A stretch of DNA of 64,000 nt, taken from NCBI RefSeq assembly GCF_947493595.1, contig NZ_CANLRL010000001.1:124001-188000 (forward strand), read 5' to 3'. The first letter of the stretch is position 1; each line of letters begins with the position of its first letter. The notes beneath the pieces were generated by a model. That model searched no databases and was not told the DNA's origin. It was given only the letters and a program-made list of their open reading frames with translations. The DNA comes from an uncultured Shimia sp. (GTDB lineage Bacteria > Pseudomonadota > Alphaproteobacteria > Rhodobacterales > Rhodobacteraceae). Made by a program: the position numbers and the translations under genes. This document shows positions 1-43,341 of this stretch, piece after piece.

Positions 1-262
1 CCGTGTGAATAAATTCAACGGTTGCCGCGAGGTGCACGTGGTAGGGGCCGTCATAGCCACATAATTTGGCGGCTGCCAAAGTCAGCATCGGGCGTAGGCG
101 TTTGCCACCGGCACCAACTAGATGCGCGGTCACTTCTGGAATGCGCGGCGCATGTTTGGAGGCCATACGCTCTTCGATCAGGGCATTTACCGCTTCCATG
201 TCGTCGCGCAGCAGGACTGCGAGGGCTTCGTGCGGCTTGCTTGCGGCGTGATCGAGACTCAT
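1..262 (-). CDS. Polyprenyl diphosphate synthase, N-terminal part (cut by window edge)
   Basis: Only the first 87 codons are inside the window; the gene runs off the left edge. The frame opens at ATG 262 and reads MSLDHAASKPHEALAVLL, then contains GGKRLRPMLTLAAAKL, the conserved substrate-binding GGKR(L/I)RP segment of trans-isoprenyl diphosphate synthases, followed by HLAATVEFIHT just before the first aspartate-rich motif would start. The family makes the long prenyl side chain of ubiquinone from farnesyl and isopentenyl diphosphate. In an alphaproteobacterium the product is probably C50 (Q10), but chain length cannot be read from this piece. It is divergent from the DUF2007 gene with a 59-bp gap. 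Confidence 0.85.
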   Translation of the reverse strand, partial: MSLDHAASKPHEALAVLLRDDMEAVNALIEERMASKHAPRIPEVTAHLVGAGGKRLRPMLTLAAAKLCGYDGPYHVHLAATVEFIHT

Positions 263-23441: not shown

Positions 23442-26402
23442 TCAATTTCCTTCCATGGAGAGCGCGGCATCCACCAGCGCTGCTTGTTGGGCTTTGTGTT
23501 GGCTTGCCAGTCCGGTGGCAGGGGAGGCGGAGGCCGGGCGGCCTGCGTATACCGGACGGGTGTGTTTGGCTTTGATGCGGGTCAGGGCCCATTCGATGTT
23601 GGGCTCGATGAACGACCAGGCACCTTGGTTCTTGGGCTCTTCCTGACACCAGACCATTTCCGCATCTTTGAAGCGCTCAAGCTCCTTGATCAGCGAGTGG
23701 GCCGGGAACGGATAGTATTGCTCAATCCGCATCAGGTAGACATCGTCGATGCCACGGGCGTCGCGTTCTTCGAGCAGGTCGTAGTAGACTTTGCCTGAGC
23801 ACATGACGACGCGTTTGACGTCTTTGTCTTTGGCCAGCGTGGTGTCGGAGTTGCCTTTTTGGGCGTCATCCCAGAGCACGCGGTGGAACGAAGAGCCATC
23901 GGTGAAATCTTCTGCTTCGGAAATGGCCAGCTTGTGACGCAGCAGGGACTTTGGTGTCATCAGGATCAGCGGCTTGCGGAAGGTGCGGTGCAGCTGACGG
24001 CGCAGGATGTGGAAGTAGTTGGCTGGCGTGGTACAGTTCGCCACAATCCAGTTGTCACCCCCACACATCTGCAGGAAGCGCTCAAGGCGGGCAGAGGAGT
24101 GCTCTGGGCCCTGGCCTTCAAAACCGTGCGGCAACAGAACGGTCAGACCGGACATGCGCAGCCATTTGCTTTCGCCGGAGCTGATGAACTGGTCAAACAT
24201 GATCTGCGCGCCGTTGGCGAAGTCACCAAACTGGGCTTCCCAGAGCGTCAGCGCGTTTGGTTCTGCCAGCGAGTAGCCGTACTCAAAACCAAGTACCGCG
24301 TACTCAGACAGGGCGGAGTCGATGACTTCGTACTGGCTTTGACCGGCGCGGATGTTGTTGAGCGGGTAGTAGCGCTCTTCGGTGTCCTGGTTGATGATGC
24401 CGGAGTGACGCTGGGAGAAGGTGCCACGGGTGGCGTCCTGACCTGCGAGGCGGACCGGATAGCCTTCGGTCAGCAGTGAGCCAAAGGCCATGGCTTCGGC
24501 GGTGGCCCAGTCAAAGCCTTTGCCGCTTTCAAACATCTTGCCACGGGTGTCCAAGAGACGGCCCACGGTTTTGTGCACGGGGAAGCCTTCAGGAACGGAG
24601 GACAGAGACCTGCCGATTTCAGCCATGGTTTCTGGCTTGATCGAGGTCTGGCCGCGCTCATAGTCTTCGCCGCGCTTGTCCAGATGGGACCAACGGCCAT
24701 CGAGCCAATCTGCCTTGTTGGGCTTGTACTCTTTGCCGGTCTCGAACTCTTCGTTCAGATGGGCCTGGAAGGAGGCTTTCATGTCCTCGATCTCGCCCTC
24801 TGGAATGAGGCCGTCTTTTACCAGACGTTCGGTGTAGAGCGTCAGGGTGGTTTTGTGCTTTTTGATGCGCTTGTACATCACCGGGTTGGTGAACATGGGC
24901 TCGTCGCCCTCGTTGTGACCAAAGCGGCGGTAGCAGAACATGTCGATGACGACGTCTTTCTGGAACTTCTGACGGAATTCCGTCGCCACTTTTGCTGCGT
25001 GTACAACCGCCTCTGGATCGTCGCCGTTCACGTGGAAAATCGGGGCTTCCACAACCAGCGCGTTGTCGGTTGGGTATGGCGAGGAGCGGGAGAAGTGTGG
25101 CGCGGTGGTGAAGCCGATCTGGTTGTTCACCACGATGTGCATGGTGCCGCCTGTTTTGTGGCCTTTCAGGCCGGACAGGGCAAAACACTCAGCCACAACA
25201 CCTTGGCCGGCAAAAGCCGCGTCGCCGTGCAGCAGGATCGGCATCACAGAGGTGCGCGCATCGTCATTGCGTTGGTCCTGCTTGGCGCGAACCTTGCCCA
25301 AGACAACCGGGTTCACCGCCTCAAGGTGAGAGGGGTTGGCGGTCAAGGAGAGGTGCACGGCGTTGCCGTTGAACTCACGGTCAGACGAAGCACCGAGGTG
25401 GTATTTCACGTCACCGGAGCCGTCGACATCCTCTGGTTTAAAGCTGCCGCCCTGGAATTCGTTGAAGATCGCGCGGTATGGCTTGGCCATCACGTTGGCC
25501 AATACGGACAGGCGGCCACGGTGTGGCATACCGATGACAATTTCTTCGACACCCAAGCTGCCGCCGCGTTTGATCACCTGCTCCATGGCGGGGATCAGGC
25601 TTTCGCCACCGTCCAGGCCAAAGCGCTTGGTGCCCATGTATTTCACATGCAGGAACTTCTCAAAGCCCTCGGCCTCGACCAGCTTGTTCAGGATCGCCTT
25701 GCGGCCCTCACGGGTGAAGGTGATTTCCTTGTCGTACCCTTCGATGCGCTCTTTGAGCCAGCTCGCCTCTTCGGGGTTGGAAATGTGCATGTATTGCAGC
25801 GCGAAGGTGCCACAGTAGGTGCGCTTCACGATGTCCATGATCTGGCGCATCGTGGCGATGTCGAGACCGAGTACCTTGTCGATGAAGATCGGGCGATCCA
25901 TGTCGGCGTCAGAGAAGCCGTAGGATTTTGGATCAAGCTCCGGATGCGGGGTCTGATTCCGCATGCCCAGCGGGTCGATGTCTGCAATCAGGTGGCCACG
26001 AATACGGTAGGCGCGGATGATCATCAGGGCGCGGATGGAATCCAGCACCGCGCGCTTGATGGCTTCGTCAGAGACCTCAACGCCTTTCTCGGCGGCTTTC
26101 TCTTTGATCTTTTTGCCAGCGGCCTTGGCTTCAACCTGTTCCGGCCATTCGCCGGTCAGGGAAGACGTCAGGTCATCATTTGGCTGTGGGGGCCAGTCAT
26201 TACGCGCCCAAGACGGGCCAGCGGCCTCTGCCTTGACGTCCAGCTCGGCATCACCAAGCTGGCGGAAAAACTCCTGCCAGACTTCGTCAACCGCAGCGGG
26301 GTCGGCGGCGTAGCGGGCGTACATCTGTTCGAGGTATTCCGCATTGTGCCCCTGCATAAAGGAGGAGGCGTGGAAGATGTCGTTTGGCGACTGTTCGGTC
26401 AT
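23442..26402 (-). CDS. sucA: 2-oxoglutarate dehydrogenase E1
   Basis: A 986-residue thiamine-diphosphate enzyme that decarboxylates 2-oxoglutarate and succinylates the E2 lipoyl group. The N-terminal FMQGHNAEYLEQMYARYAAD helix is the E2-binding segment of proteobacterial E1o. GMPHRGRLSVLANV and GDAAFAGQGVVAE lead into the TPP/Mg site, and NNQIGFTT closes it. The C-terminal HGFEGQGPEHSSARLERFLQ is also diagnostic. GAGGTG precedes the ATG. The 249-bp gap from sucD contains a palindromic repeat and a possible own promoter. Confidence 0.97.
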   Translation of the reverse strand: MTEQSPNDIFHASSFMQGHNAEYLEQMYARYAADPAAVDEVWQEFFRQLGDAELDVKAEAAGPSWARNDWPPQPNDDLTSSLTGEWPEQVEAKAAGKKIKEKAAEKGVEVSDEAIKRAVLDSIRALMIIRAYRIRGHLIADIDPLGMRNQTPHPELDPKSYGFSDADMDRPIFIDKVLGLDIATMRQIMDIVKRTYCGTFALQYMHISNPEEASWLKERIEGYDKEITFTREGRKAILNKLVEAEGFEKFLHVKYMGTKRFGLDGGESLIPAMEQVIKRGGSLGVEEIVIGMPHRGRLSVLANVMAKPYRAIFNEFQGGSFKPEDVDGSGDVKYHLGASSDREFNGNAVHLSLTANPSHLEAVNPVVLGKVRAKQDQRNDDARTSVMPILLHGDAAFAGQGVVAECFALSGLKGHKTGGTMHIVVNNQIGFTTAPHFSRSSPYPTDNALVVEAPIFHVNGDDPEAVVHAAKVATEFRQKFQKDVVIDMFCYRRFGHNEGDEPMFTNPVMYKRIKKHKTTLTLYTERLVKDGLIPEGEIEDMKASFQAHLNEEFETGKEYKPNKADWLDGRWSHLDKRGEDYERGQTSIKPETMAEIGRSLSSVPEGFPVHKTVGRLLDTRGKMFESGKGFDWATAEAMAFGSLLTEGYPVRLAGQDATRGTFSQRHSGIINQDTEERYYPLNNIRAGQSQYEVIDSALSEYAVLGFEYGYSLAEPNALTLWEAQFGDFANGAQIMFDQFISSGESKWLRMSGLTVLLPHGFEGQGPEHSSARLERFLQMCGGDNWIVANCTTPANYFHILRRQLHRTFRKPLILMTPKSLLRHKLAISEAEDFTDGSSFHRVLWDDAQKGNSDTTLAKDKDVKRVVMCSGKVYYDLLEERDARGIDDVYLMRIEQYYPFPAHSLIKELERFKDAEMVWCQEEPKNQGAWSFIEPNIEWALTRIKAKHTRPVYAGRPASASPATGLASQHKAQQAALVDAALSMEGN

Positions 26403-26651: not shown

Positions 26652-27533
26652 TTAGCCGATCGCTTTAAGCACAGCTTCGCCGAGGCCGGCTGGGCTGTCT
26701 GCCACAACGATGCCAGCTTCCTGCATCGCGGCGATCTTGTCTTCGGCACCACCTTTGCCACCGGCAACAATCGCACCGGCGTGACCCATGCGACGGCCGG
26801 GAGGCGCTGTGCGGCCTGCGATGAAACCTGCGGTTGGCTTCCAGCGACCTTTCTTGCGCTCGTTGGCGAGGAATTCTGCGGCTTCTTCTTCCGCGGAACC
26901 ACCGATCTCACCGATCATGATGATGGACTGGGTCTCGTCATCGCTGAGGAACATGTCCAGCACGTCGATGTGCTCGGTGCCTTTGATGGGGTCGCCGCCG
27001 ATGCCCACAGCTGTGGACTGGCCCAGACCGATGTCTGCGGTCTGCTTTACCGCTTCGTAGGTCAGTGTGCCGGAGCGGGACACAACGCCCACGGAGCCAC
27101 GCTTGTGGATGTGGCCTGGCATGATGCCGATTTTGCAGGCGTCAGGCGTGATAACGCCCGGGCAGTTTGGACCGATCAGGCGGGAGGCAGAGCCTTCCAG
27201 TGCGCGCTGTACTTTCATCATGTCCAGCACTGGAATGCCTTCGGTGATGCAGATGATCAGTTCCATTTCCGCATCGATGGCTTCGAGGATCGAGTCGGCC
27301 GCGAAGGGCGGGGGCACATAGATCACAGAAGCGTTGGCTTCGGTCTTGGCCTTGGCGTCGTGTACCGAGTCAAAGACCGGCAGGCCGAGGTGTTCCATGC
27401 CACCTTTGCCCGGGGTCACGCCGCCGACCATTTTGGTGCCATACGCGATGGCTTGTTCAGAGTGGAAGGTGCCCTGAGAGCCGGTGAAGCCCTGACAGAT
27501 TACCTTGGTGTTTTCGTCTACGAGAATAGCCAT
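26652..27533 (-). CDS. sucD: Succinyl-CoA synthetase, alpha subunit
   Basis: A 293-residue subunit carrying the CoA-binding Rossmann domain ([17 protein letters not shown] near the N terminus) and the phosphorylated active-site His in [11 protein letters not shown]. It acts with SucC to make succinate, CoA and ATP from succinyl-CoA. GGAGACT lies upstream of the ATG. Unusually it is not adjacent to sucC: a 160-residue secreted-protein gene intervenes. Confidence 0.97.
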
Positions 27534-28098: not shown

Positions 28099-28101
28099 CA
28101 C

Positions 28102-29295
28102 TTAGCCTTTAACCGCTTTCACGATTTTCTCGGCGCCGTCGGACAGGTTGTCCGCCGCGATCACATCAAGACCGGAGGTGTTGATGATCTCTTTGCCGGC
28201 TTCCACGTTGGTGCCTTCGAGACGCACAACCAGCGGCACCTGCAGGCCAACTTCTTTCACCGCGGCCACAACGCCCTCTGCGATCACGTCACAGCGCATG
28301 ATGCCGCCGAAGATGTTCACGAGGATGCCTTTGACGTTTGGATCAGAGGTGATGATCTTGAACGCTTCGGTCACTTTCTCTTTGGTTGCGCCGCCGCCCA
28401 CGTCGAGGAAGTTGGCAGGTTCTGCACCGTAGAGTTTGATGATGTCCATGGTGGCCATCGCGAGACCCGCGCCATTCACCATGCAGCCGATTTCACCGTC
28501 CAGAGCGATGTAGTTCAGGTCGTACTTGGACGCCTCAAGCTCTTTGGGGTCTTCTTCGGTGTCATCGCGCAGTTCGACGATGTCCGCGTGGCGGTAGAGG
28601 GCGTTGCCGTCAAAGCCAACTTTGGCGTCGAGCACTTTCAGGGACCCACCTGGCATGACGATCAGCGGGTTGATCTCCAGCTGCTCCATGTCTTTTTCCA
28701 TGAAGGCTTTGTAGAGAATGCCCATCAGCTTCACGCATTCTTTGACCTGTGCGCCTTTCAGGCCCAAGGAGAAGGCAACGCGACGGCCGTGGTATGGCTG
28801 GTAGCCAGTGGCCGGGTCCACAGAGAAAGACAGGATTTTCTCAGGGGTGGCTTCGGCCACTTCTTCGATGTCCATGCCGCCTTCGGTGGAGCACACAAAG
28901 GACACGCGGGAGGTCTGACGATCCACCAGCAGAGCCAGATACAGCTCACGTTCGATGTCGGAGCCGTCTTCGATGTAGATGCGGTTGACCTGTTTGCCCG
29001 CTGGACCGGTCTGGTGGGTCACAAGGGTGCGGCCCAGCATCTTTTTGGCTTCTTCGGCGGCTTCTTCGACCGATTTGGCGAGGCGGACACCGCCTTTTTC
29101 ACCTGCGTCGGCTTCTTTGAAAGAGCCTTTGCCGCGCCCACCTGCGTGGATTTGCGCCTTCACAACCCAAAGGGGGCCGTCAAGTTCGCCAGCGGCGGAT
29201 TTTGCGTCTTCTGCTTTGAGAACGGCGCGGCCTTCGGACACCGGGGCGCCGTAGGAGCGAAGCAGGGCTTTCGCCTGATATTCGTGGATGTTCAT
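28102..29295 (-). CDS. sucC: Succinyl-CoA synthetase, beta subunit (ADP-forming)
   Basis: A 397-residue ATP-grasp protein. [19 protein letters not shown] opens the ATP-grasp domain, [13 protein letters not shown] binds nucleotide phosphate, and the CoA-ligase domain near residues 320-330 has [15 protein letters not shown]. It is the first gene of the sucC-x-sucD-sucA-sucB run and is preceded by paired TGTGATCACA palindromes 96-126 bp upstream. Confidence 0.97.
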
Positions 29296-29714
29296 GGAAC
29301 TGTCCCATCTTGCTGCGATTGGAGCAGTTCTGGCACAGTCCTGTCGAGCCGATAAGCAAATTCGACAGGAATGGTGGATTTTTTCTCATTTGTGATCACA
29401 GTCTCAAAACGTGTGATCACAAAATGTAGCTGCTCGGCGGAAAGCCGCACAAGTTATTTAAAATGTCTGTGAAATAAGGCGATGCGCGTGCGACTCGGAC
29501 TGCGGCGTCGCGTTACCGCCAACGGTTTGGCGCCCGCAAACTGTGATGCGCCCGCTTTGTGGTATTGGATTTGACGTGACATAAGACCAAATCACCCGGA
29601 GGGCATTGGCGTGACAGCCTCGTCACCAATAGCGCGGGCGGGTAATTGCAAGGGGCGCGCGCCTTTGTGGCTAAGCGCCGCAGTTGGTGGTGCCGTGACC
29701 TGCGAGGGGGCGGG
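29296..29714. other. Non-coding spacer upstream of sucC
   Basis: About 420 bp without a convincing gene. It holds the sucC leader and the paired TGTGATCACA operators (29391-29421). The inverted repeat CCTGTCGA (29340-29347)/TCGACAGG (29372-29379) also lies here. A short GTG-initiated frame at 29611 with a GGAGGG upstream overlaps the lipoprotein gene antisense and is not accepted. Confidence 0.6.
29391..29421 (-). promoter_or_regulatory. Paired TGTGATCACA operator upstream of sucC
   Basis: Two perfect 10-bp palindromes TGTGATCACA at 29391-29400 and 29412-29421, centres 21 bp apart, two helical turns. The same pair with a 20-bp spacing precedes sdhC. The bound protein is unknown; dimeric regulators binding the same face of DNA are expected from the spacing. 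Confidence 0.7.
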
Positions 29715-29972
29715 CTACGTTGGCATACAAGACGTAACGCCACCCGGGGTGCTCATCAGGGTTGTCCCCTGTGGGCACGCTGCAACGGGGTAGGAAGCTG
29801 CGGTTGCTGGATATCCCTGTGTCGGGACCTGGCTGTTGGGACCCGGGGAAACAGGCGGCTCACTTTGAGGGCCGGCGCGCACAGTTCGATCTGACGTTGT
29901 TTGGTGATTTCCGCAGGCCGTGAGGGTTGCGAAAGACATCAGGACGACTGGCAGAACTAGGCGATGGAACAT
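29715..29972 (-). CDS. Small Pro/Ser-rich lipoprotein
   Basis: An 85-residue precursor. The signal MFHRLVLPVVLMSFATLTAC ends in the lipobox LTAC, placing the lipidated Cys at residue 20. The mature part is low-complexity (Pro, Ser, Thr, Gly) with two further cysteines. ATG 29972 follows GAGG by 6 nt; the longer upstream extension has no ribosome site. No family recognised. It is divergent from the glycosyltransferase-like gene. Confidence 0.6.
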   Translation of the reverse strand: MFHRLVLPVVLMSFATLTACGNHQTTSDRTVRAGPQSEPPVSPGPNSQVPTQGYPATAASYPVAACPQGTTLMSTPGGVTSCMPT

Positions 29973-30171
29973 GGGGGCCTCAATCAGATTGTTAAAAAGA
30001 ATTGGCGGCGGCAAAGCGCATACATGGAGAAAGTGTAGGCAGTTTGCGGGCCAGCGCAACCAAAACGAAGTGATTGACAGTCCGGCGCGCATTGTTGTTT
30101 TACAGGCCACGCTGTCTCCACATTTTTGGAGACGGTAAATAGGCCGATTGGCATTTATTTGGAGAAGTTGT

Positions 30172-31170
30172 TTGCGTTGGGATATTGTGACGACGGCCTT
30201 TGAGCCAACTGCGGTGACTTTGGGGTTTCTGGCGCATCATGTGGATTTAGGCGTTAACAAGATTTGGCTGCATTTGGACGCGCCGAACTCTGAGCTGGAA
30301 TCGCTTGTTGGAGATCATCCCCAAATTCAGATCATCAATTGCAATGCCGCCTATTGGGCGGCAAGTTCCAATGGCGAGCGGCCGTGGGATTTCCGGATCC
30401 GCCAAACCATCAATGCGGATGCGGCTATGGCGCAAAGCTCGGCTGATTGGATCGCCCACATTGATGCCGACGAATATGTCACCAATGAGAGTGCTCTGTT
30501 TGCCTTTCTTCAGAAGCAACCGGATGAGGTGTTGACCGTGGTGGTGCCGAACGGAGAGAGGGTGCACCGCCGGGGAGGTAGGCAGCCGCATATTTTCACC
30601 GGCACATTTCGGTTGCCGTTTCCGCCGCGCATTCACCGAGCTTTGCCATTGTTGTATGGAAAACATGCCAAGTACCTGCAAAAAGGCCTGGCGGGGTATT
30701 GGCACGGGAAAGCCTTTACACGCGTGTCGTCCGGACTGCCGTTGGCCTTGCACCGCGCGAAACTGCCCGAGGGCATGAAAGTTCATGAGGGGCAACGCGA
30801 GTTTTCTGAGCAGGCGATTTTGCATTTTGACGGCATGACCAAGGCGCATTGGCTGGACAAAATGCGCAAGAAGGCGCCGGGAGGCAAAGTGCTGAAGCCC
30901 CATAACCCTGCACGTATTCGCCAGGCACAGGATGTTTGGGACAACCGCGACAACGGACCGTATCTCGATCACCTTTATCAGCACGTCAAAGAGATCAACG
31001 GGGCGCAACAGATATTGCTAAACTTGCTTGGGCGGGGAAAGGCGTTTGATGTGGACGTGCCCGCCAAGATCAAAGCGGTGTTTCCACATGCAAATGTGGA
31101 TCTGACGCCAGAAGCGGTGGATGCGGCGCTCAAAGACATTCAGGACGGGCGGGTGCCCACCGCGTTCTAA
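30172..31170 (+). CDS. Glycosyltransferase family 2-type protein
   Basis: A protein of about 332 residues with a GT-A-like N-terminal half: RWDIVTTAFEPTAVTLGFLA, a nucleotide-sugar-type strand, and a DxD motif in HIDADEYV (about residues 100-107). This matches the Glyco_tranf_2_4 group that adds sugars to surface glycans; acceptor and donor are unknown. TTG 30172 is preferred, 7 nt after GGAGAAG; an earlier in-frame TTG at 30148 lies before that ribosome site. No other polysaccharide genes are nearby, so it is an isolated gene convergent with mdh. Confidence 0.72.
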   Translation: MRWDIVTTAFEPTAVTLGFLAHHVDLGVNKIWLHLDAPNSELESLVGDHPQIQIINCNAAYWAASSNGERPWDFRIRQTINADAAMAQSSADWIAHIDADEYVTNESALFAFLQKQPDEVLTVVVPNGERVHRRGGRQPHIFTGTFRLPFPPRIHRALPLLYGKHAKYLQKGLAGYWHGKAFTRVSSGLPLALHRAKLPEGMKVHEGQREFSEQAILHFDGMTKAHWLDKMRKKAPGGKVLKPHNPARIRQAQDVWDNRDNGPYLDHLYQHVKEINGAQQILLNLLGRGKAFDVDVPAKIKAVFPHANVDLTPEAVDAALKDIQDGRVPTAF

Positions 31171-31177
31171 GCACAAA

Positions 31178-31205
31178 AAAGGCGCCGCAGAGGGCGCCTT
31201 TTTCA
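31178..31205. terminator. Bidirectional terminator between glycosyltransferase and mdh
   Basis: AAAGGCGCC (31178-31186) pairs perfectly with GGCGCCTTT (31193-31201) over a 6-nt loop, with T runs on both strands. Confidence 0.88.
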
Positions 31206-31223
31206 ATTCAGTGCAAGCGTGGC

Positions 31224-32210
<987 letters not shown>

Positions 32211-32343
32211 TTATCGGGGGGTGGCTTAAGTCGAAATGCGCGTTGACGCAAGTGTTTGAAGCTGAAGCTTCACGAGTAGGCGGAGAGCTGAACAGGGATA
32301 AGGAGCAAAATTTCTTGCGCAATTTGTATGGTTTGGCGCGCTT

Positions 32344-32358
32344 GATTTGCGGCAAATC
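32344..32358. promoter_or_regulatory. Palindrome between mdh and a small lipoprotein gene
   Basis: GATTTGC-G-GCAAATC is a perfect 7-bp inverted repeat around one base, 52-66 bp upstream of the lipoprotein start. It contains the octamer TGCGGCAA also found upstream of phaA, phaB, mcl2 and ecm. Confidence 0.4.
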
Positions 32359-32409
32359 CTGTGAGTAGATGGCGGGCATAAATCACAGGCTTCTTTGAGG
32401 ACCAATAAA

Positions 32410-32613
32410 ATGAAAACAACCATGAAAACCCTGATGGCACTGACGTTGGTGGCCATGACAGTGTCCGCGTGTGGCGGTGGCAATGCGACAACAAACGTAC
32501 AAGCCGTAAGCGTTGGCGACCAGCTTGCTTCCTTGGAGAAAGCCTATGCAGAAGGTCTGGTGACAGACAAAGAATACAAAGATCAGCGCAAGAAGATTCT
32601 TGACGGGAAGTGA
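32410..32613 (+). CDS. Small lipoprotein with SHOCT-like C terminus
   Basis: A 67-residue precursor. The signal peptide ends in the lipobox VSAC. After a short linker, the C-terminal 32 residues (QLASLEKAYAEGLVTDKEYK, then DQRKKILDG) match the short SHOCT helix pair, a module found at the ends of many unrelated bacterial proteins and thought to mediate oligomerisation. ATG 32410 lies 9 nt after GAGG; a TTG upstream in frame is less likely. Function unknown. Confidence 0.75.
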   Translation: MKTTMKTLMALTLVAMTVSACGGGNATTNVQAVSVGDQLASLEKAYAEGLVTDKEYKDQRKKILDGK

Positions 32614-32688
32614 TCGCACTTTCGCTGCTTTGCAGCATGAGTGGCCACAAATTTCGGCAGGCGCGGCATCGGCTGCGCCTGTTTTTCT

Positions 32689-33429
32689 ATGACTGATTCT
32701 CTCACATTCTGGATGCTGGCACCAATTGCGGTGTTGTTTGCCGGGGTGTCCAAAGCTGGTTTTGGCTCTGGTGCGGCTTTTGCCAGCGCGGCGGTGCTGG
32801 CGCTCATCCTGCCGCCTGCGCAGGCGTTGGGGCTGATGTTGCCCGTGTTGATGGTGATCGATCTCGCGACGCTGCGGCCTTATTGGGGCAAATGGCACTG
32901 GCCGGAGGCGCGGGTGTTGATCCTCGGCGGCATTCCAGGTGTGGTCGGGGGTGTTGCGCTGTTTCGCGTGGCCAATGACGATGTGTTGCGTCTTTTGATG
33001 GGCGCAGTCTCTCTTGGCTTTGTGATTTGGCAGCTGTGGCCGCGCGCGGCGACACGTCAAAAAATGCCTGTGCGCTTGGGGGGCTTGGCCGGAGCTTTGG
33101 CGGGGTTCACCAGCTTTGTTAGCCATGCGGGAGGCCCGCCAGCGGCCGTGTATCTATTGTCTCGAGGGCTGGGCAAGACCGCCTATCAAGCCACCACGGT
33201 TTTGGTGTTTTGGGTGATTAATATTGCAAAATTTGTGCCCTATGCGTTCCTCGGGGTGTTTACCGCCGAGACCCTGCGCGCGGGTGTGGTTTTGGCACCA
33301 TTCGCGCTGCTGGGAGCCTGGATAGGTGTGAGGCTGCATCACGCCGTATCAGAGCGGGTCTTCTTTGCGTTGACCTATACGCTCCTGTCGATCACCGGCG
33401 TGACACTGATTTGTAACGCGCTTTTCTAA
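32689..33429 (+). CDS. TauE/SafE-family sulfite/organosulfonate exporter-like permease
   Basis: A 246-residue membrane protein with about eight hydrophobic helices in two repeats. GVSKAGFGSGAAFASAAVLA near the N terminus and SFVSHAGGPPAAVYLLSRGL in the second half are the paired signature loops of TauE/SafE. The family exports sulfite, sulfoacetate or similar anions; substrate unknown here. The ATG at 32689 gives a normal start although no strong ribosome site is visible. Confidence 0.82.
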   Translation: MTDSLTFWMLAPIAVLFAGVSKAGFGSGAAFASAAVLALILPPAQALGLMLPVLMVIDLATLRPYWGKWHWPEARVLILGGIPGVVGGVALFRVANDDVLRLLMGAVSLGFVIWQLWPRAATRQKMPVRLGGLAGALAGFTSFVSHAGGPPAAVYLLSRGLGKTAYQATTVLVFWVINIAKFVPYAFLGVFTAETLRAGVVLAPFALLGAWIGVRLHHAVSERVFFALTYTLLSITGVTLICNALF

Positions 33430-33441
33430 AGGCGTGTGACA

Positions 33442-33759
33442 TCAAGCGTCGTCACCTTTGGCCGGCAGAGCTTCGGCAAGCTTTTCATAGGATTGGCCGG
33501 TCGCCATCAGGCATGTGGAGCCGTTTGGCATGGTGACGGTGATGGTCCAGCTGCCGGAATCTTCGGAGGCAAAAATCTCCACCATGGAGCCCTGTGTGCC
33601 AAGACCAAGCGCCTGACGGGATTCCCCGTACTTCTGGGCCAGACGTTCCACAACCAGGTCGCGGGTGGCGCAATGTTGCATGTTCTGTGCCTGGGCGATT
33701 GAGGTGGCGCAGATCGAAAGGCCAAGACCGGCCGTCAGGGTCAAAAAAGTGCGTTTCAT
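33442..33759 (-). CDS. Small secreted protein of unknown function
   Basis: A 105-residue precursor with a Sec signal (MKRTFLTLTAGLGLSICATS, cleaved after AQA) and a mature domain of about 80 residues with two cysteines (MQHCAT, STCLMA) and strands SWTITVTMPNGSTCLMA. GAGGAAA lies 4-5 nt before ATG 33759. I recognise no family. It is convergent with the TauE gene (12 bp between stops) and divergent from mcl2. Confidence 0.7.
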   Translation of the reverse strand: MKRTFLTLTAGLGLSICATSIAQAQNMQHCATRDLVVERLAQKYGESRQALGLGTQGSMVEIFASEDSGSWTITVTMPNGSTCLMATGQSYEKLAEALPAKGDDA

Positions 33760-33991
33760 GTGGTTTCCTCTCATTAAGAAGGCATGTGCGCGCCTTTTGC
33801 ACGCCATGGATTTCAAAGCTCTCGCCTCTTCTTATGATCGCGGTCCTTTTGAACCGTCTTTGCGTTCCTCCCACAGGAAGCGATGGGGTGAGTGTGCGCA
33901 GGTTGGGGCTTAAAAATGGTTAACGTAACGATTTCATTGTTTCCAAAACCGCGACATTTGGCGCATCCGCTTGAGTTAGCGTGAGACTTTT

Positions 33992-34065
33992 CTGCGATGC
34001 GGCAAAAACGCCCTTGAAGTTTTCTGAGAAAAATGCACCTCTCTGCGCAACATAATTGCGGAGAG
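33992..34065 (+). promoter_or_regulatory. mcl2 upstream region with three candidate operator elements
   Basis: The 310-bp gap 33760-34069 has no gene. CTGCGATGCGGCAAAA (33992-34007) matches CTGCGTTGCGGCAAAA upstream of ecm at 15 of 16 positions. TGCGCAACATAATT (34044-34057) is identical to a 14-mer upstream of phaB and lies in an inverted repeat CTCTGCGCAA-N5-TTGCGGAGAG (34041-34065, 9 of 10 pairs) that covers the ribosome site of mcl2. Confidence 0.5.
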
Positions 34066-34069
34066 AGTC

Positions 34070-34924
34070 ATGGATCAGCGCGCACGCCCCTTTCGGTCGG
34101 TTCTTTACATTCCTGGGTCCAAGGACCGTGCATTGGAAAAAGCACGTGGTTTGCCGGTGGATGCCATCATCTTTGATCTCGAAGATGCGGTGGCACCGGA
34201 CGAAAAGGAAAACGCCCGTGCCACATTGGCGGATGCGTTGACACAGGGCGGATATGGAAGCCGGATGCGCATTGTTCGGATCAATGGTCTGGACACACAA
34301 TGGGGCGAGGCGGATGCCAAGGCCGCGGCGGGTATGGATTGTGATGCAGTGCTGCTGCCAAAGGTGGAAAACGCCGCGCAGGTCGATGCGCTAGCCGCGT
34401 TGATTGGCGATAAGCCGATTTGGGCAATGATGGAAACACCGCGCGGCATGCTGAATGCAGCAGAGATTGCGGCGCATCCACAGTTGACTGGCTTTGTGAT
34501 GGGCACCAATGACCTTGCCAAAGAGCTGCAAACCCGTTTCCGCCCAGATCGGTTGCCAATGATGGCGGGGTTGGGTCTGTGTCTGCTGGCTGCCAAGGCC
34601 GAGGGCATTGTGATTGTTGATGGCGTGTACAATGCGTTCAAAGATGCCGAAGGCCTGAAGGTGGAATGTGATCAGGGCCGTGACATGGGCTTTGATGGCA
34701 AAACGCTGATCCACCCGGCGCAGGTAGATGTGGCCAATGCGGCCTTTGCGCCAAGTGAGGCTGAGATCGATCTGGCGAAGCGTCAGATTGCGGCGTTTGA
34801 AGAGTGCGAAGCCAGCGGGCAGGGCGTGGCCGTGGTGGATGGCAAGATTGTCGAAAACCTGCACATTGTCACCGCGCGTGAAATTTTGGCAAAGGCGGAT
34901 GCAATCGCCGCGCTGGAAGGTTAA
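34070..34924 (+). CDS. mcl2: CitE-like CoA-ester lyase/thioesterase, probable (3S)-malyl-CoA thioesterase
   Basis: A 284-residue HpcH/HpaI-aldolase-type TIM barrel. FRSVLYIPGSKDRALEKARG opens the barrel, the metal and acid residues lie in IFDLEDAVAPDEK, and MMETPRGMLNAAEIA and GFVMGTNDLAKEL follow. It is shorter than Mcl1 lyases (about 318 aa) and resembles the Rhodobacter Mcl2 group, which hydrolyses (3S)-malyl-CoA to malate in the last step of the ethylmalonyl-CoA pathway. The position before nnrU and mch and near sdh supports this choice over lyase activity; the sequence alone does not prove it. Confidence 0.8.
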   Translation: MDQRARPFRSVLYIPGSKDRALEKARGLPVDAIIFDLEDAVAPDEKENARATLADALTQGGYGSRMRIVRINGLDTQWGEADAKAAAGMDCDAVLLPKVENAAQVDALAALIGDKPIWAMMETPRGMLNAAEIAAHPQLTGFVMGTNDLAKELQTRFRPDRLPMMAGLGLCLLAAKAEGIVIVDGVYNAFKDAEGLKVECDQGRDMGFDGKTLIHPAQVDVANAAFAPSEAEIDLAKRQIAAFEECEASGQGVAVVDGKIVENLHIVTAREILAKADAIAALEG

Positions 34925-34963
34925 CTCTTACCCCACAACCAAATAATCCAGCGAGGGAGCGAG

Positions 34964-35515
34964 ATGACGTTATTGGTTCTTGGGGTGCTACTTTGGGCCG
35001 GGGCCCATTTTTTCAAGCGGGTCCTGCCCGGTGTGCGGGAGCCTATGGGCGACAAAGGCAAAGGGCTTGTGGCGATCGCGCTTGTTGCCTCGATTGTGCT
35101 CATGGTGATTGGCTTTCAGGCAGCACCGGTTGAGGACGTTTTGTGGGTGGCACCAAGTTTTGCCAAGCACATCAACAATTTGGCGGTTCTGTTTGCCATT
35201 TTCCTGATGAGCCCCGCGCCGCGCAAAGGCAAACTGTTCAATGGGATGCGTCACCCGATGCTGATTGGGTTTGCTTTGTGGGCGTGTGCGCACCTTTGGG
35301 TCAACGGCGATATGCCGTCACTGGTCCTGTTTGGCGGCCTGTTGGTTTGGGCGCTTGCCGAGATTGTGGTGATCAACAAAGCCGAAGGGCCTTGGACGCC
35401 AACAGAGACCGGCAGTATTGCCAAAGATGGCATGTTTTTTGTCGCGTCCATCATTCTGATGGGTGTGATCGGATATATTCACGGGCTTGTCGGCCCAAGC
35501 CCATTTGGAGGGTAA
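34964..35515 (+). CDS. NnrU-family membrane protein
   Basis: A 183-residue inner-membrane protein with six hydrophobic segments; HFFKRVLPGVREPMGDKGKG, RHPMLIGFALWACAHLWVNG and the C-terminal GLVGPSPFGG match NnrU. In denitrifiers NnrU is required for nitrite/nitric-oxide reductase expression, but relatives occur widely without denitrification genes, as here. GAGGGAGCGAG precedes the ATG. It lies 39 bp after mcl2 and 4 bp before the DUF1737 gene. Confidence 0.85.
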   Translation: MTLLVLGVLLWAGAHFFKRVLPGVREPMGDKGKGLVAIALVASIVLMVIGFQAAPVEDVLWVAPSFAKHINNLAVLFAIFLMSPAPRKGKLFNGMRHPMLIGFALWACAHLWVNGDMPSLVLFGGLLVWALAEIVVINKAEGPWTPTETGSIAKDGMFFVASIILMGVIGYIHGLVGPSPFGG

Positions 35516-35519
35516 GCAC

Positions 35520-35723
35520 ATGAAACTCTACCGTTTTCTCTCCGAAGAGGACACATCGGCGTTTTGTCACAAGGTGACAGACGCGCTTAACAAGGGGTGG
35601 GAGCTGTATGGCTCCCCGACACAGACCTTTTGCCACAAGACCGGCGTGATGCGTTGCGGTCAATCCGTGGTGAAGGAAGTGGAGGGCACTTACACCCCGG
35701 AGACCAAACTGGGAGAACACTGA
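35520..35723 (+). CDS. DUF1737 small protein
   Basis: A 67-residue protein, MKLYRFLSEEDTSAFCHKVT..., matching DUF1737: an N-terminal strand, a helix, then GWELYGSPTQTF and a short beta hairpin. No function is known. ATG 35520 follows GGAGGG by 7 nt. Its TGA overlaps the mch ATG by one base, so expression is coupled to mesaconyl-CoA hydratase. Confidence 0.8.
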   Translation: MKLYRFLSEEDTSAFCHKVTDALNKGWELYGSPTQTFCHKTGVMRCGQSVVKEVEGTYTPETKLGEH

Positions 35724-36754
35724 TGGCCAAGACCAATCCGGGCCGGTTTTTTGAAGATTACACACTCGGTCAAGTGATCGAGCATGCGGTGCCACGCACC
35801 GTGGGGGCAGGGGAACGGGCGCTGTATCATGCGCTTTATCCTGCGCGTCATGCTCTGTATTCAAGCGATGAATTTGCGCGCACCTCCGGGCTGCCGCAAT
35901 CGCCGCTGGATGATCTGGCGGCGTTTCACGTGGTCTTTGGCAAAACGGTTCCGGATGTGTCGCTCAACGCGGTGGCAAACCTCGGCTATGCCGAGGGGCG
36001 CTGGCTGAAGCCGGTTTATGCTGGCGATACGTTGCGCAGCACGTCCGAAGTGATTGGTCTGAAGCAGAACTCCAATGGCAAAACCGGTGTGGTTTATGTG
36101 CGTACGCGCGGTATGAATCAACGCGACGAGGTGGTCATGGAGTATGTGCGCTGGGTCATGGTGCGCAAGCGGGATGCGGAGGCACCGGCACCTGAGACTG
36201 TGGTGCCGGAGCTGTCCAAGGTGATTGATCCAGCTGATTTGGTGATTCCAGAGGGGTTGAACTTCACTGGCTATGATTTTGCCCATGCGGGCGAAGCCCA
36301 TCGCTGGGGTGACTATGAGGTGGGTGAAACCATTGATCACGTGGATGGTGTGACGCTGGAAGAAGCGGAGCACATGATGGCGACGCGCCTGTGGCAGAAC
36401 ACCGCCAAAGTACATTTTGACGCCACCTTCCGCCCGGACGGGCAGCGCCTGATCTATGGTGGACATATCATTTCCTTGGCACGGGCTTTGTCCTTCAACG
36501 GTCTGGCCAACGCGCAGATGATTGTGGGGCTGAATGGCGGCGCACATGTAAATCCGGCGTTCTCTGGTCTGACGGTCAAAGCGTGGTCTGAGGTATTGGA
36601 CAAAGCGGAGACCTCCGCACCGGGTGTGGGCGCGATCCGCCTGCGACTGGTCGCGACCAAAGGTGGGGAGCCGTTTACGCTGAAAAGCGATGATGGAAAA
36701 TACCAGCCCGACGTGCTGCTTGATCTTGACTACTGGGCGCTGATGCCGATGTGA
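35723..36754 (+). CDS. mch: Mesaconyl-CoA hydratase
   Basis: A 343-residue double hot-dog (MaoC-like) hydratase. KTNPGRFFEDYTLGQVIEHA and VGAGERALYHALYPARHALY open the first half, and GEAHRWGDYEVGETIDHVDG with RLIYGGHIISLARAL form the second. Length and N terminus match Mch of Rhodobacter, which hydrates mesaconyl-CoA to beta-methylmalyl-CoA in the ethylmalonyl-CoA pathway. It starts one base inside the DUF1737 stop and overlaps the next gene by GTGA, forming a tight mcl2-nnrU-DUF1737-mch operon. Confidence 0.92.
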   Translation: MAKTNPGRFFEDYTLGQVIEHAVPRTVGAGERALYHALYPARHALYSSDEFARTSGLPQSPLDDLAAFHVVFGKTVPDVSLNAVANLGYAEGRWLKPVYAGDTLRSTSEVIGLKQNSNGKTGVVYVRTRGMNQRDEVVMEYVRWVMVRKRDAEAPAPETVVPELSKVIDPADLVIPEGLNFTGYDFAHAGEAHRWGDYEVGETIDHVDGVTLEEAEHMMATRLWQNTAKVHFDATFRPDGQRLIYGGHIISLARALSFNGLANAQMIVGLNGGAHVNPAFSGLTVKAWSEVLDKAETSAPGVGAIRLRLVATKGGEPFTLKSDDGKYQPDVLLDLDYWALMPM

Positions 36755-37509
36755 TTGGTCTCATGTTGAGACCACTTTGCACCGCCGCCGCATTTGCTCT
36801 GGCCTGTCCTGCGCAGGCCGAGCTTTCCTTTGCCACCACAAGCGATGACACCATTGCCTATGTCGAAAGCAACCTGCTTGGGATTTTCTATCACGAGCTC
36901 GGGCATGCGTTGATCGATATCCTTGGTTTGCCGATTTTTGGGCAGGAAGAAGATGCGGCGGATGTGCTGTCGATCTTTTTGATCGATGCTTTTTACGAAG
37001 AAGAAAGTGCAGTGCAGCTGGCTTATGATGCGGCCTTTGGCTTCCTTGGGGAAGCTGACGCCAATTCTGAGATTGCGTTCTGGGATGTGCACGGGCCGGA
37101 CTTGCAGCGCTACTACAATACGGTGTGCCTGTTTTACGGCGCCAATCCGGAGGAGCGTGATGATGTTGCCGAGGATCTGGGTTTGCCGGAAGAGCGGGCC
37201 GAATACTGTCCGGAAGAGTACGATCAGGCGGCACAAAGCTGGGGCGGTGCGTTGGATGAGATCGTACATGACAAAGGCGGAAAAACGCTGACGCTTGGTA
37301 ACTTTGAGGTGGGTAGCGATGGCGGCGCACTGACGGCGGAAGTTGTGCGGGCGGAGGTTGAGGCGCTGAATCAAGAGTTCCGGCTGCCAGAGGATTTGTT
37401 GATTTCAGTGGTCCCCTGTGGGGAGGCCAATGCCTTTTATGATCCGCAGCGCGTTGAGATTGTGATGTGCACCGAATTTGCCGATGCGTTGGTGGAAATG
37501 GCGCCATAG
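36751..37509 (+). CDS. Secreted DUF4344-type zinc metallopeptidase
   Basis: A 252-residue precursor with a signal peptide (cleavage after AQA, about residue 23) and a zincin motif HELGH at residues 48-52 in LLGIFYHELGHALIDILG. Downstream Glu/Asp residues in EEDAADVLSIF could supply the third ligand. The rest is acidic with three cysteines. The DUF4344 family is predicted periplasmic metallopeptidase with no known substrate. GTG 36751 overlaps the mch stop (GTGA); an ATG at 36763 has no ribosome site. Confidence 0.82.
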   Translation: MIGLMLRPLCTAAAFALACPAQAELSFATTSDDTIAYVESNLLGIFYHELGHALIDILGLPIFGQEEDAADVLSIFLIDAFYEEESAVQLAYDAAFGFLGEADANSEIAFWDVHGPDLQRYYNTVCLFYGANPEERDDVAEDLGLPEERAEYCPEEYDQAAQSWGGALDEIVHDKGGKTLTLGNFEVGSDGGALTAEVVRAEVEALNQEFRLPEDLLISVVPCGEANAFYDPQRVEIVMCTEFADALVEMAP

Positions 37510-37567
37510 ATGTGAGCCACACAAGGACGTGACAGGATTTTTCCGCCACCTAGGGTAAGGTGGCTGT

Positions 37568-38233
37568 ATGATTGTGCGTCTTTGTTTCGTTGTTTTCCTT
37601 TGTGCTCAGGTGCCCATGGCGCGCGCCTGTGATCTGGCGCTTTTGTTGGCTGTGGATGTGTCCGGCAGTGTGGATGCCACGGAGTATGACATTCAGATGC
37701 AGGGGCTTTCCGCTGGCCTGCGTGATGGCGTTGTTGTTGAGGCTTTGATCAAAGCGGAGGCGGCGGTAGCTGTGATGCAGTGGACCGGAGCGGATCGGCA
37801 GGTGATGTCGGTGCCATGGATGCGTGTGCGCAATGGCGCGGAGGCCGAGGCCTTGGCAGCCGCGGTGGATACCACGCAGCGCGGGTGGCGCAGGTATTCG
37901 ACGGCGATCGGCGATGCATTGACCCGGGCAGCCGTGGAGTTTGAGGCGGGTCCTGCCTGTCGTCGGATGGTTCTGGACGTGTCGGGTGACGGACCATCAA
38001 ATGAGGGGAGCGCCCCTGAAGCTGGCAGAAAACGGCTGGGTCAGATGGGCGTGACGGTGAACGGCCTGGTCATCGAAACCGAAGATGATGATCTCACCGG
38101 ATACTACTGGGAAAATGTGATCACAGGGCCGGGAGCGTTTGTGGTGACCGCAAATGGGTTTGATGAATATCCCAAAAGGATTCGGCAAAAATTGATGCGG
38201 GAGGTCGCCCAACAGCTTTCGCAGCTTCGATGA
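37568..38233 (+). CDS. Secreted DUF1194 protein with von Willebrand A-like fold
   Basis: A 221-residue precursor with a signal peptide (cleavage after ARA, about residue 20). The mature protein starts CDLALLLAVDVSGSVDATEY; DVSGS (residues 30-34) is a metal-ion-dependent adhesion site, and VLDVSGDGPSNEG supplies a later conserved loop. DUF1194 function is unknown. A TGTGATCACA palindrome identical to the sdh/suc operators lies inside this gene at 38116-38125. Confidence 0.82.
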   Translation: MIVRLCFVVFLCAQVPMARACDLALLLAVDVSGSVDATEYDIQMQGLSAGLRDGVVVEALIKAEAAVAVMQWTGADRQVMSVPWMRVRNGAEAEALAAAVDTTQRGWRRYSTAIGDALTRAAVEFEAGPACRRMVLDVSGDGPSNEGSAPEAGRKRLGQMGVTVNGLVIETEDDDLTGYYWENVITGPGAFVVTANGFDEYPKRIRQKLMREVAQQLSQLR

Positions 38234-38346
38234 GACACGGTCAGGCATGCCTATCTGTGAGCGCAAACATCTTTTGGGGGTGTGCAGCTTGAGGATTCAT
38301 TGTGATTGACGGAAATTTTTCCGACAAAAAGACTCTTTGGCGGATG

Positions 38347-38376
38347 TGTGATCACAACTAAAAGAGCGTGATCACA
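38347..38376 (+). promoter_or_regulatory. Paired TGTGATCACA-type operator upstream of sdhC
   Basis: TGTGATCACA (38347-38356) and CGTGATCACA (38367-38376), centres 20 bp apart, 116-145 bp before sdhC. They match the pair upstream of sucC in sequence, number and spacing, which argues for shared control of succinyl-CoA synthetase/2-oxoglutarate dehydrogenase and succinate dehydrogenase. Confidence 0.7.
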
Positions 38377-38491
38377 AAAGTGGAGGAATCCATGGCATTG
38401 CACCAAAAAACCATGACATTTAGGGTATTGAAACCGTGACAAGGTGCAAAAAAGCGGTAAAACGATTTCAGCTAACCTGAAAGGAGCCACT

Positions 38492-38875
38492 ATGGCCGAT
38501 GTCAATCGGGGCAACCGCCCGCTTTCGCCTCATTTGAGTATTTACCGTCCGCAGATGACCTCCGCGTCGTCCATCATGGTTCGCATCAGTGGTATCGGCG
38601 TGCTGGGTGTGGCCCTCTTTGTTGTTTGGTGGCTTCTGGCCGCAGCAACCTCTGAGAGTGCTTTTGCCGGTATCGACGGTTTCATGCGCAGCTGGTTTGG
38701 CGGACTTCTGCTTACTGCCGGGGCTTGGGGCCTTTGGTACCACACGCTCGGCCGTCTGCGTCACGTGATCTGGGACCTCGGATACTGCATGGACGTGCAA
38801 ACGTCCGAGCGTATGGGGCTGGGCATGTTTGTCGGCGCAACTGTGCTGACCGTCATCACTGTGATTGCGGTGTAA
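38492..38875 (+). CDS. sdhC: Succinate dehydrogenase cytochrome b556 subunit
   Basis: A 127-residue membrane anchor with three helices (about 30-50, 63-83 and 103-126). NRPLSPHLSIYRPQMTSASS is the conserved quinone-side start, and HTLGRLRHVIWDLG carries the haem-ligand His. It forms the membrane part of complex II with SdhD. AAAGGAG lies 5 nt before ATG 38492; a longer frame upstream has no support. Confidence 0.95.
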   Translation: MADVNRGNRPLSPHLSIYRPQMTSASSIMVRISGIGVLGVALFVVWWLLAAATSESAFAGIDGFMRSWFGGLLLTAGAWGLWYHTLGRLRHVIWDLGYCMDVQTSERMGLGMFVGATVLTVITVIAV

Positions 38876-39281: not shown

Positions 39282-41090
39282 ATGACTGCAGCATACGAAT
39301 ATGAAACCCACGAATATGATGTCGTGGTAATTGGCGCCGGCGGCGCGGGTCTGCGTGCGACGCTGGGCATGGCTGAGCAAGGCCTGCGCACCGCCTGTGT
39401 GACCAAAGTTTTCCCAACCCGCTCGCACACTGTTGCGGCGCAGGGTGGTATCGCGGCGTCCTTGTCCAACATGGGCCCGGACAACTGGCAGTGGCATATG
39501 TATGACACTGTGAAAGGCTCCGACTGGCTGGGTGACACCGATGCGATGGAATACCTCGCACGCGAAGCACCCAAAGCGGTCTATGAGCTGGAACACTACG
39601 GTGTGCCATTCTCGCGCACCGAAGAAGGCAAGATCTACCAGCGTCCGTTTGGCGGCCACACCACCGAGTTTGGTGAAGGCCCTGCGGTACAGCGGACCTG
39701 TGCGGCAGCGGACCGGACCGGCCACGCGATCCTGCACACGCTTTATGGCCAGTCGGTCAAGAACAACGCCGAGTTCTACATCGAGTATTTCGCGCTTGAT
39801 CTGATCATGTCTGAGGACGGTCAATGTCAGGGTGTGGTGTGCTGGAAGCTCGACGATGGCACCATGCATGTCTTCAATGCGAAGATGGTTGTGCTGGCGA
39901 CCGGCGGTTATGGCCGGGCGTATTTCTCTGCAACCTCCGCGCACACCTGTACCGGTGATGGTGGCGGTATGGTTGCCCGTGCGGGTCTGCCGCTGCAGGA
40001 TATGGAGTTTGTTCAGTTTCACCCAACCGGCATCTATGGCTCCGGCTGTCTGATCACTGAGGGCGCACGTGGCGAAGGTGGCTATCTGACCAACTCCGAA
40101 GGCGAGCGCTTTATGGAGCGTTATGCGCCGCAGTATAAAGACCTCGCACCTCGGGACTACGTGTCGCGCTCCATGACTATGGAGATCCGTGAAGGTCGTG
40201 GTGTGGGTGAGAATGGCGATCACATTCACCTGAACCTCAGCCATTTGCCAGCCGAAGCGCTGGCGGAGCGTCTGCCGGGTATCTCTGAATCTGCAAAAGT
40301 CTTTGCGGGGGTGGATGTGAACAAAGAACCAATCCCGGTTCTGCCAACGGTGCACTACAACATGGGCGGCATTCCAACCAACTATTGGGGTGAAGTTCTG
40401 AACCCGACCGCGGAAGATCCAACTGCGGTTGTGCCGGGTCTGATGGCTGTGGGCGAAGCGGGCTGTGCCTCTGTGCACGGTGCAAACCGCCTGGGGTCCA
40501 ACTCGCTGATCGACCTTGTGGTGTTTGGCCGTGCGTCAGCCATTCGCGCCGGTAAGGTTGTGGACGCGGACGCGCCCAATCCTGTGCTGAACCAAGCCTC
40601 TGTGGACAAAGCGTTTGATCGCCTCGACACCGTACGCAACGCCAAAGGCGGCGCGCCAACGGCTGAGCTGCGTCTTGAGATGCAGCGCACCATGCAGGCG
40701 GATGCGGCGGTGTTCCGGACCGACAAGACGCTGAAAGAAGGCGTTGAGAAGATGACGGACATTGCGGCGAAGATCGACGATCTGCACGTGACCGACACCT
40801 CTCTGGTTTGGAACAGCGACCTGATGGAAACGCTGGAACTGACCAACCTGATGCCAAATGCTCTGGCGACGATCCACGGTGCGGAAGCCCGTAAGGAAAG
40901 CCGTGGCGCACATGCGCATGAGGACTATTCCGAGCGGGACGATGAGAACTGGCGTGTGCACACTGTGAGCCGTGTGGATGGCAACAAGGTGGACCTGACG
41001 TATCGTCCGGTGATCAAAGATCCTCTGACCACCGAGGATGAAGGCGGTATCAGCCTGAAGAAGATCGCTCCAAAAGCGCGGACCTTCTGA
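39282..41090 (+). CDS. sdhA: Succinate dehydrogenase flavoprotein subunit
   Basis: A 602-residue flavoprotein with covalently bound FAD on His49 ([12 protein letters not shown]). Active-site blocks: [30 protein letters not shown] and [12 protein letters not shown] for the dinucleotide fold. It oxidises succinate to fumarate and passes electrons to SdhB. The gene ends in TGATG overlap with a secreted-protein gene rather than with sdhB. Confidence 0.97.
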
Positions 41091-41644: not shown

Positions 41645-41690
41645 GCTGTTTGGCATATGATCTGCGCGCTGTGCTGCGGGAGGGCCTGTG

Positions 41691-42561: not shown

Positions 42562-43341
42562 ATGGTCGAATTTGCCCTCCCCAAGAACAGTCGGATTGTG
42601 ACCGGCAAGACCTGGCCAAAGCCAGAAGGTGCGACCAACGTGCGCAAGTTCCAGATTTATCGCTGGAACCCGGACGACGGTAAAAACCCGCAGATCGACA
42701 CATATTTCCTCGATATGGACAAATGTGGCCCGATGATTTTGGACGCGCTGATCAAGATCAAAAACGAGATTGATCCAACGCTGACCTTCCGCCGCTCTTG
42801 CCGCGAAGGAATCTGTGGCTCCTGCGCGATGAACGTGGACGGGATCAACACGTTGGCCTGTATCTATGGCCTGGACGAAGTTAAGGGTGACGTGAAAATC
42901 TACCCGCTGCCGCATATGTCAGTGGTGAAAGACCTGATCCCGGATCTGACCCATTTCTATGCTCAACACGCGTCGATCATGCCGTGGCTGGAAACCAAGA
43001 CCAACCGACCGGCCAAAGAATGGCGCCAGTCGATTGATGACCGCAAGAAGCTTGATGGTCTGTATGAGTGTGTGATGTGCGCGTCCTGCTCTACATCCTG
43101 CCCAAGCTACTGGTGGAACGGCGACAAATACCTCGGCCCAGCCGCGCTGTTGCACGCCTATCGCTGGATCATCGATAGCCGGGATGAGGCGACAGGTGAG
43201 CGCTTGGATGAGCTGGAAGATTCCTTCAAGCTGTATCGCTGCCACACCATCATGAACTGTGCCAAAACCTGCCCAAAGGGTTTGAACCCGGCGAAAGCGA
43301 TTGGCGAGATCAAGAAGATGCTGATTGAGCGTCACGTCTAA
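42562..43341 (+). CDS. sdhB: Succinate dehydrogenase iron-sulfur subunit
   Basis: A 259-residue iron-sulfur protein. The [2Fe-2S] cysteines are in [16 protein letters not shown] plus the following loop; the [4Fe-4S] and [3Fe-4S] ligands are in [15 protein letters not shown] and [11 protein letters not shown]. It transfers electrons from SdhA to quinone at the SdhC/D interface. AGGAAGG lies upstream of the ATG. The operon ends with a strong terminator 21 bp after the stop. Confidence 0.97.

Follow-up and report, generated by a model that had tools for sequence, protein, structure and literature searches.

Paired palindromes upstream of sucC and sdhC in Shimia are predicted operators of the GntR-family regulator AkgR

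Introduction

Why should one short palindrome stand twice, at almost the same spacing, before the first genes of two separate tricarboxylic acid (TCA) cycle operons? The question arises in a stretch of 64,000 nucleotides from an uncultured Shimia sp. (assembly GCF_947493595.1, contig NZ_CANLRL010000001.1, positions 124,001 to 188,000), hereafter the window, in which a sequence-only reading had placed two pairs of palindromes, one upstream of sucC and one upstream of sdhC, and assigned both to a single, unidentified dimeric regulator. The AkgR regulon of Rhodobacter (Cereibacter) sphaeroides, with RSP_0981 as its regulator, was reportedly described by Imam and colleagues in 2015. From motif, target genes and an encoded candidate ortholog, we predict that both pairs are very probably operators of this organism's AkgR ortholog, and thus of a regulator already described in Rhodobacter. 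An excerpt of PMC6365646 reports GTGATCAC among the sites bound by AkgR, an activator of R. sphaeroides, and one of PMC4344238 gives RSP_0981, of the GntR family, as the predicted regulator of sucCD, sdh, and 2-oxoglutarate dehydrogenase. Besides PMC6365646, none of the papers retrieved for the 10-mer and the 8-mer concerned this regulator, as far as titles and the opening lines of abstracts tell.

Results

The four palindromes are all present as exact matches where they had been claimed, upstream of sucC and sdhC, and the spacings, when recomputed, gave the same values of 21 and 20 bp (table 1). With at most one mismatch to TGTGATCACA, six matches fall in the window against 1.79 expected from shuffles, a count reached in 1 of 100 shuffles. 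In the genome as a whole (4.28 Mb, 23 contigs, 99.99% complete), the pattern GTGATCAC-N(10..14)-GTGATCAC occurs at exactly two places, sucC and sdhC, and its reversed control at none; pairs at unrelated loci, which would have spoken against the sequence-only reading, are thus not seen here. Single exact copies of TGTGATCACA number eight genome-wide, versus about four by an equal-composition estimate; the lone 10-mer is therefore mildly enriched, and the exceptional thing is the pair. Three of these eight lie within the two pairs, one at 38116 in a DUF1194 coding sequence, three in open reading frames (L007, L008, and L009), and one just ahead of a GntR gene of contig C5, so that every copy outside open reading frames sits at sucC, at sdhC, or at the C5 regulator gene. 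The L007, L008, and L009 copies were rejected as regulon members because they lie inside open reading frames. We also rejected the 38116 copy as a third operator: its GTGATCAC core is kept in two of the seven relatives displayed, one of them a same-genus genome, and it is probably due to chance. In CRP/FNR sites a spacer separates the half-sites; the operators here have none, and a CRP/FNR reading of the palindromes was rejected.

The pair is conserved where the argument needs it, before sucC and sdhC in relatives. A scan of named genomes, allowing a gap of 10 to 15 bases, yielded a sample of 120 listed stretches with 132 pair instances: 43 precede sucC by 97-150 bp, 34 precede sdhC by 114-205 bp, 3 stand at a locus edge where mdh is positioned as beside sucC, and 52 are elsewhere. 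All 80 listed TCA instances have a gap of 12 or 13, while in the 52 others the gaps are spread from 10 to 15; the spacings of the window, 21 and 20 bp, are the two met in relatives. Two of the 52 non-TCA instances stand in records labelled Rhodobacteraceae or Thioclava (L099 and L095), and four listed TCA loci carry other record labels, given here as labelled: "Alphaproteobacteria" (L011), "Proteobacteria" (L075), "Maritalea mobilis" (L096), and "Robiginitomaculum" (L107). The bases of the gap differ between aligned relatives, and the A+T fraction of the 13-base gaps is 0.58-0.59. In a survey of 149 family genomes, one per genus, with the gap set to 12-13 and counts made by hand, 132 have the pair (twice in 106, once in 24, three times in 2), and no reversed control was found among the matches listed. 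Within a class-wide draw of 289 genomes the pair occurs in six, four of them of the same family, leaving 2 of 285 outside it; in the same draw one genome without the pair (G222) has five reversed-control matches. Of the two out-of-family pairs, one falls within an open reading frame (L176); the other directly precedes a different GntR-like gene that is divergent from a TonB-receptor-like gene (L175:992-1020, both genes named by eye). One of the third pairs (G042, L190:1494-1522) is found 125 bp upstream of the fumarase C gene fumC, assigned by Pfam, and just after sspB, indicating that the regulon can extend one TCA step further.

Which protein, then, would read these pairs? The genome has 14 matches to the FCD domain. 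Among the genes concerned, that on C5, a contig other than the window's, is the only one with an exact TGTGATCACA ahead of its start, 8 bp from the start codon; of the other FCD genes, two are associated with GTGATCAC, which lies within the gene in one case and about 200 bp beyond the gene end in the other. No NCBIfam model scores above cut-off for the C5 protein. A relative 85% identical to it (P0040) bears the NCBI name "GntR family transcriptional regulator AgkR", and many of the named best-scoring relatives come from Shimia and Ruegeria, which points to a Shimia-like organism as the source of the window. Together, GTGATCAC in the target promoters, sucCD/2-oxoglutarate dehydrogenase and sdh as targets, and an encoded GntR/FCD protein match what is reported for AkgR or predicted for RSP_0981, and make the C5 protein a clear candidate for its ortholog. 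Joint control of the suc/2-oxoglutarate dehydrogenase and sdh operons by one regulator is likely and well supported; what did not stand in the sequence-only reading is the word "unidentified", given that motif and targets match AkgR / RSP_0981.

The promoter of the regulator's own gene carries a single putative operator. We looked at the 30 best-scoring of 133 orthologs (L145-L174), that is, the closest relatives, and at 3 more: the GTGATCAC core stands just before the start codon in 30/30 of the former (29 as full TGTGATCACA, and L149 as CGTGATCACG) and in 32 of the 33 overall. Over 30 aligned promoters (without L149, L162, and L184), the distance from the end of the site to the start codon is 8 bp in 19, 7 in 7, 9 in 2, 11 in 1, and 2 in 1. 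In 29 of the 32 orthologs with the core, TTGAC stands at a constant position 17 bp ahead of the site. Counted from the start codon, TTGAC thus falls at about -35 and the operator covers the -10 region, the arrangement expected if the transcript had no leader and the protein silenced itself; a leaderless own promoter and self-repression are what we infer from this arrangement.

How closely do pair and regulator travel together? At an ortholog cut-off of E <= 1e-50, and counted by hand, an ortholog is found in 133 of the 149 family genomes: 129 have both pair and ortholog, 3 the pair only (G019, G096, and G114), 4 the ortholog only (G040, G061, G122, and G147), and 13 neither (Fisher p 7e-13). 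More telling than this count is the degenerate case of G040, which has the ortholog and no exact pair, and shows a two-mismatch pair upstream of sucC; not one of the 13 double-negative genomes has a pair at <=3 mismatches and spacing 21. Among the 40 family genomes whose pair positions were listed, 17 have the ortholog on a contig shared with a pair and 4.9-17.5 kb away from it, in keeping with the near locus tags RSP_0974-6 and RSP_0981; in 3 the two share a contig at a distance of 81-150 kb, in 18 the ortholog is on another contig, and in 2 it is absent.

Several points weigh against assigning the pairs to AkgR. A control FCD protein of the same genome, counted by hand in the same order, gives 125, 7, 6, and 11 (Fisher p 2e-8) and so also correlates with the pair, which means that much of the co-occurrence reflects shared ancestry and deserves little weight. 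In the three pair-only genomes a repeat ortholog search gave no match above 36% identity; two of them are 91 and 77% complete, and G114 is listed as 100% complete. Conversely, G061, G122, and G147 (91, 76, and 73% complete) have the ortholog and no pair at <=3 mismatches and spacing 21, and L184, from a genome with two pairs, shows no GTGATCAC at its own start. The proposed orthology of the C5 protein to RSP_0981 is drawn from the protein family, from the genes near it in relatives, and from a single NCBI name, and RSP_0981 is the protein that we take AkgR to be, in view of matching targets and family. For sdh of R. sphaeroides, an excerpt of PMC4344238 predicts CceR and NtrC as further regulators.

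The genes that follow the pairs are sucC, then sucD and sucA, on one side, and sdhC, then sdhA and sdhB, on the other (table 1). Further open reading frames lie among them. Between sucC and sucD, one of 161 amino acids on the operon strand (27616-28101) has no Pfam match, nor do two of 184 and 273 amino acids on the sdh strand between sdhA and sdhB (41090-41644 and 41688-42509). A 15-codon frame, from ATG to TGA and with GGAGG 5 bases ahead, occupies 38392-38439 between the sdh operators and sdhC.

Table 1. Features of the two operons, their predicted operators, and the candidate regulator; coordinates are those of the window unless a contig is given
Feature	Position	Strand	Basis or remark
sucA, 2-oxoglutarate dehydrogenase E1	23442..26402	-	Pfam E1_dh, 2-oxogl_dehyd_N, OxoGdeHyase_C
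sucD, succinyl-CoA synthetase alpha subunit	26652..27533	-	Pfam CoA_binding, Ligase_CoA
sucC, succinyl-CoA synthetase beta subunit, first gene of the suc operon	28102..29295	-	Open reading frame; Pfam ATP-grasp_2 + Ligase_CoA
Proximal operator of sucC, TGTGATCACA	29391..29400	.	Letter match; start-to-start 21 bp
Distal operator relative to sucC, TGTGATCACA	29412..29421	.	Letter match; pair kept in relatives
Extra TGTGATCACA within DUF1194 coding sequence	38116..38125	.	231 bp upstream of sdh pair
Distal operator of sdhC, TGTGATCACA	38347..38356	.	Letter match
Proximal operator of sdhC, CGTGATCACA	38367..38376	.	Letter match; start-to-start 20 bp
Putative sdhC core promoter, GTGACA-N16-TAAAAC	38436..38463	+	Begins 60 bp past end of GTGATCAC pair; home-made score
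sdhC, succinate dehydrogenase cytochrome b subunit	38492..38875	+	ATG at 38492; Pfam Sdh_cyt
sdhA, flavoprotein subunit	39282..41090	+	Pfam FAD_binding_2 + Succ_DH_flav_C
sdhB, iron-sulfur subunit	42562..43341	+	Pfam Fer2_3 + 4Fe-4S domains
Candidate AkgR ortholog, 217 amino acids, GntR helix-turn-helix + FCD	G000:C5:183904-184554		Outside the window, on another contig; domain matches

Discussion

The place of the pair relative to the promoter bears on what the bound protein would do. Using a home-made promoter score, with shuffles that preserve single-base composition only, we find that in 29 of 35 sdhC promoter sequences the best-scoring promoter-like element follows the pair at a distance of 50-69 bp; it is often GTGACA-N16-TAAAAC-like, and the mean best score is 7.84 versus 7.08 in shuffles. 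The pair hence precedes the core promoter, a position that suits an activator, and this geometry is compatible with activation of the targets. The sucC core promoter was not placeable by the same means (7.19 versus 7.05). It is unlikely that the pairs are instead repressor sites at which a bound protein blocks transcription of sucC and sdhC: many GntR proteins do repress, and the lone site before the gene of the regulator itself is placed where a blocker would act, whereas the sdhC element leaves the pair in a place for activation and not for blocking. The argument from geometry covers sdhC, and AkgR is termed an activator in the excerpt of PMC6365646.

Nor need the bound protein be AkgR alone, since GntR/FCD relatives can have the palindrome in common: the cluster of PS417_07240 in Pseudomonas simiae, whose product is 32% identical to AkgR, has GTGATCAC (PMC6365646, in excerpt), and the outgroup pair mentioned above sits just upstream of a GntR-like gene. 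A different GntR/FCD paralog, such as the 39% identical protein of 238 amino acids encoded at C2:158375-159088, might thus bind the pairs or share them with AkgR. We regard this as very improbable; no GTGATCAC stands in the sequence examined ahead of the C2 gene, and by hand count its protein (E < 1e-50) occurs in 73 of the 149 family genomes, 72 of them with the pair, so that 60 of the 132 pair genomes lack it. As for a chance origin of the palindromes, or a structural element without any regulator, the lone TGTGATCACA is indeed only about twofold above simple expectation genome-wide, but the exact pair is confined to two TCA promoters in the genome and is kept before sucC and sdhC across the family while the intervening bases vary, and we give this explanation almost no credence.

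Returning to AkgR as the protein that reads the pairs, the mechanism may be pictured as follows. Each palindrome would bind one AkgR dimer, and two dimers, two helical turns apart and on the same DNA face, could bind cooperatively ahead of sucC and ahead of the core promoter of sdhC, so that the genes for succinate dehydrogenase and those for succinyl-CoA synthetase/2-oxoglutarate dehydrogenase would be transcriptionally activated in concert. At its own gene, a lone copy covering the -10 region would let AkgR repress itself. Taken as a whole, operator architecture in Rhodobacteraceae might then act as a two-mode switch, in which pairs at 20-21 bp activate TCA operons (suc, sdh, and fumC in some species) through two cooperating dimers and the lone site over the -10 region of the apparently leaderless own promoter represses, yielding a self-limiting activator conserved across the family; we offer this tentatively, with a little less confidence than doubt. 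In all likelihood, the regulation is real, conserved, and functional, a known regulator acting on known or predicted targets in a new genome; possible novelties are the strictness of the paired spacing and its contrast with the single self-operator.

How does this compare with the systems already described? By sequence, the closest solved structure to the regulator is that of the GntR-type McbR (YncC) of Escherichia coli (PDB 4p9f, E 1.1e-20), which is not an ortholog, and McbR has different targets. The GntR-like PS417_07240 of the P. simiae deoxyribonate cluster resembles AkgR in that the same palindrome is proposed for it; yet, in the excerpt of PMC6365646, its proposed control is of a catabolic cluster with a single palindrome described, and not of TCA operons. 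CceR (RSP_1663), in turn, belongs to the LacI family and is also predicted on sdh and mdh in R. sphaeroides, but its motif, (A/G/T)GTT-N6-8-AAC(A/C/T), differs (PMC4344238, in excerpt), and no exact match to it was found in 29250-29600 or 38230-38500 of the window. In Paracoccus denitrificans, succinate dehydrogenase and 2-oxoglutarate dehydrogenase are placed outside the CceR regulon (PMC11323563, in excerpt). This species has an AkgR ortholog of 71% identity on a 1.73-Mb replicon (L197:17972), with one TGTGATCACA just before the start codon; no suc or sdh gene was found within 18 kb of it, and the stretch has no annotated feature in its record. AkgR is thus a natural candidate for TCA control there as well. 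The closest likeness is to the AkgR regulon of R. sphaeroides itself, which shares with the present case GTGATCAC, the GntR family, and the predicted targets sucCD, sdh, and 2-oxoglutarate dehydrogenase (PMC6365646 and PMC4344238, in excerpt). In the present case the regulator is encoded on a contig other than the window's, and we describe a paired spacing that is fixed and an operator in the regulator's own promoter. The sites are thereby assigned to a known regulator, the likely link that AkgR makes between 2-oxoglutarate dehydrogenase, succinyl-CoA synthetase, and succinate dehydrogenase appears conserved in most of the family, as judged from the genomes with the pair, and knowledge gained in R. 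sphaeroides becomes transferable to marine roseobacters.

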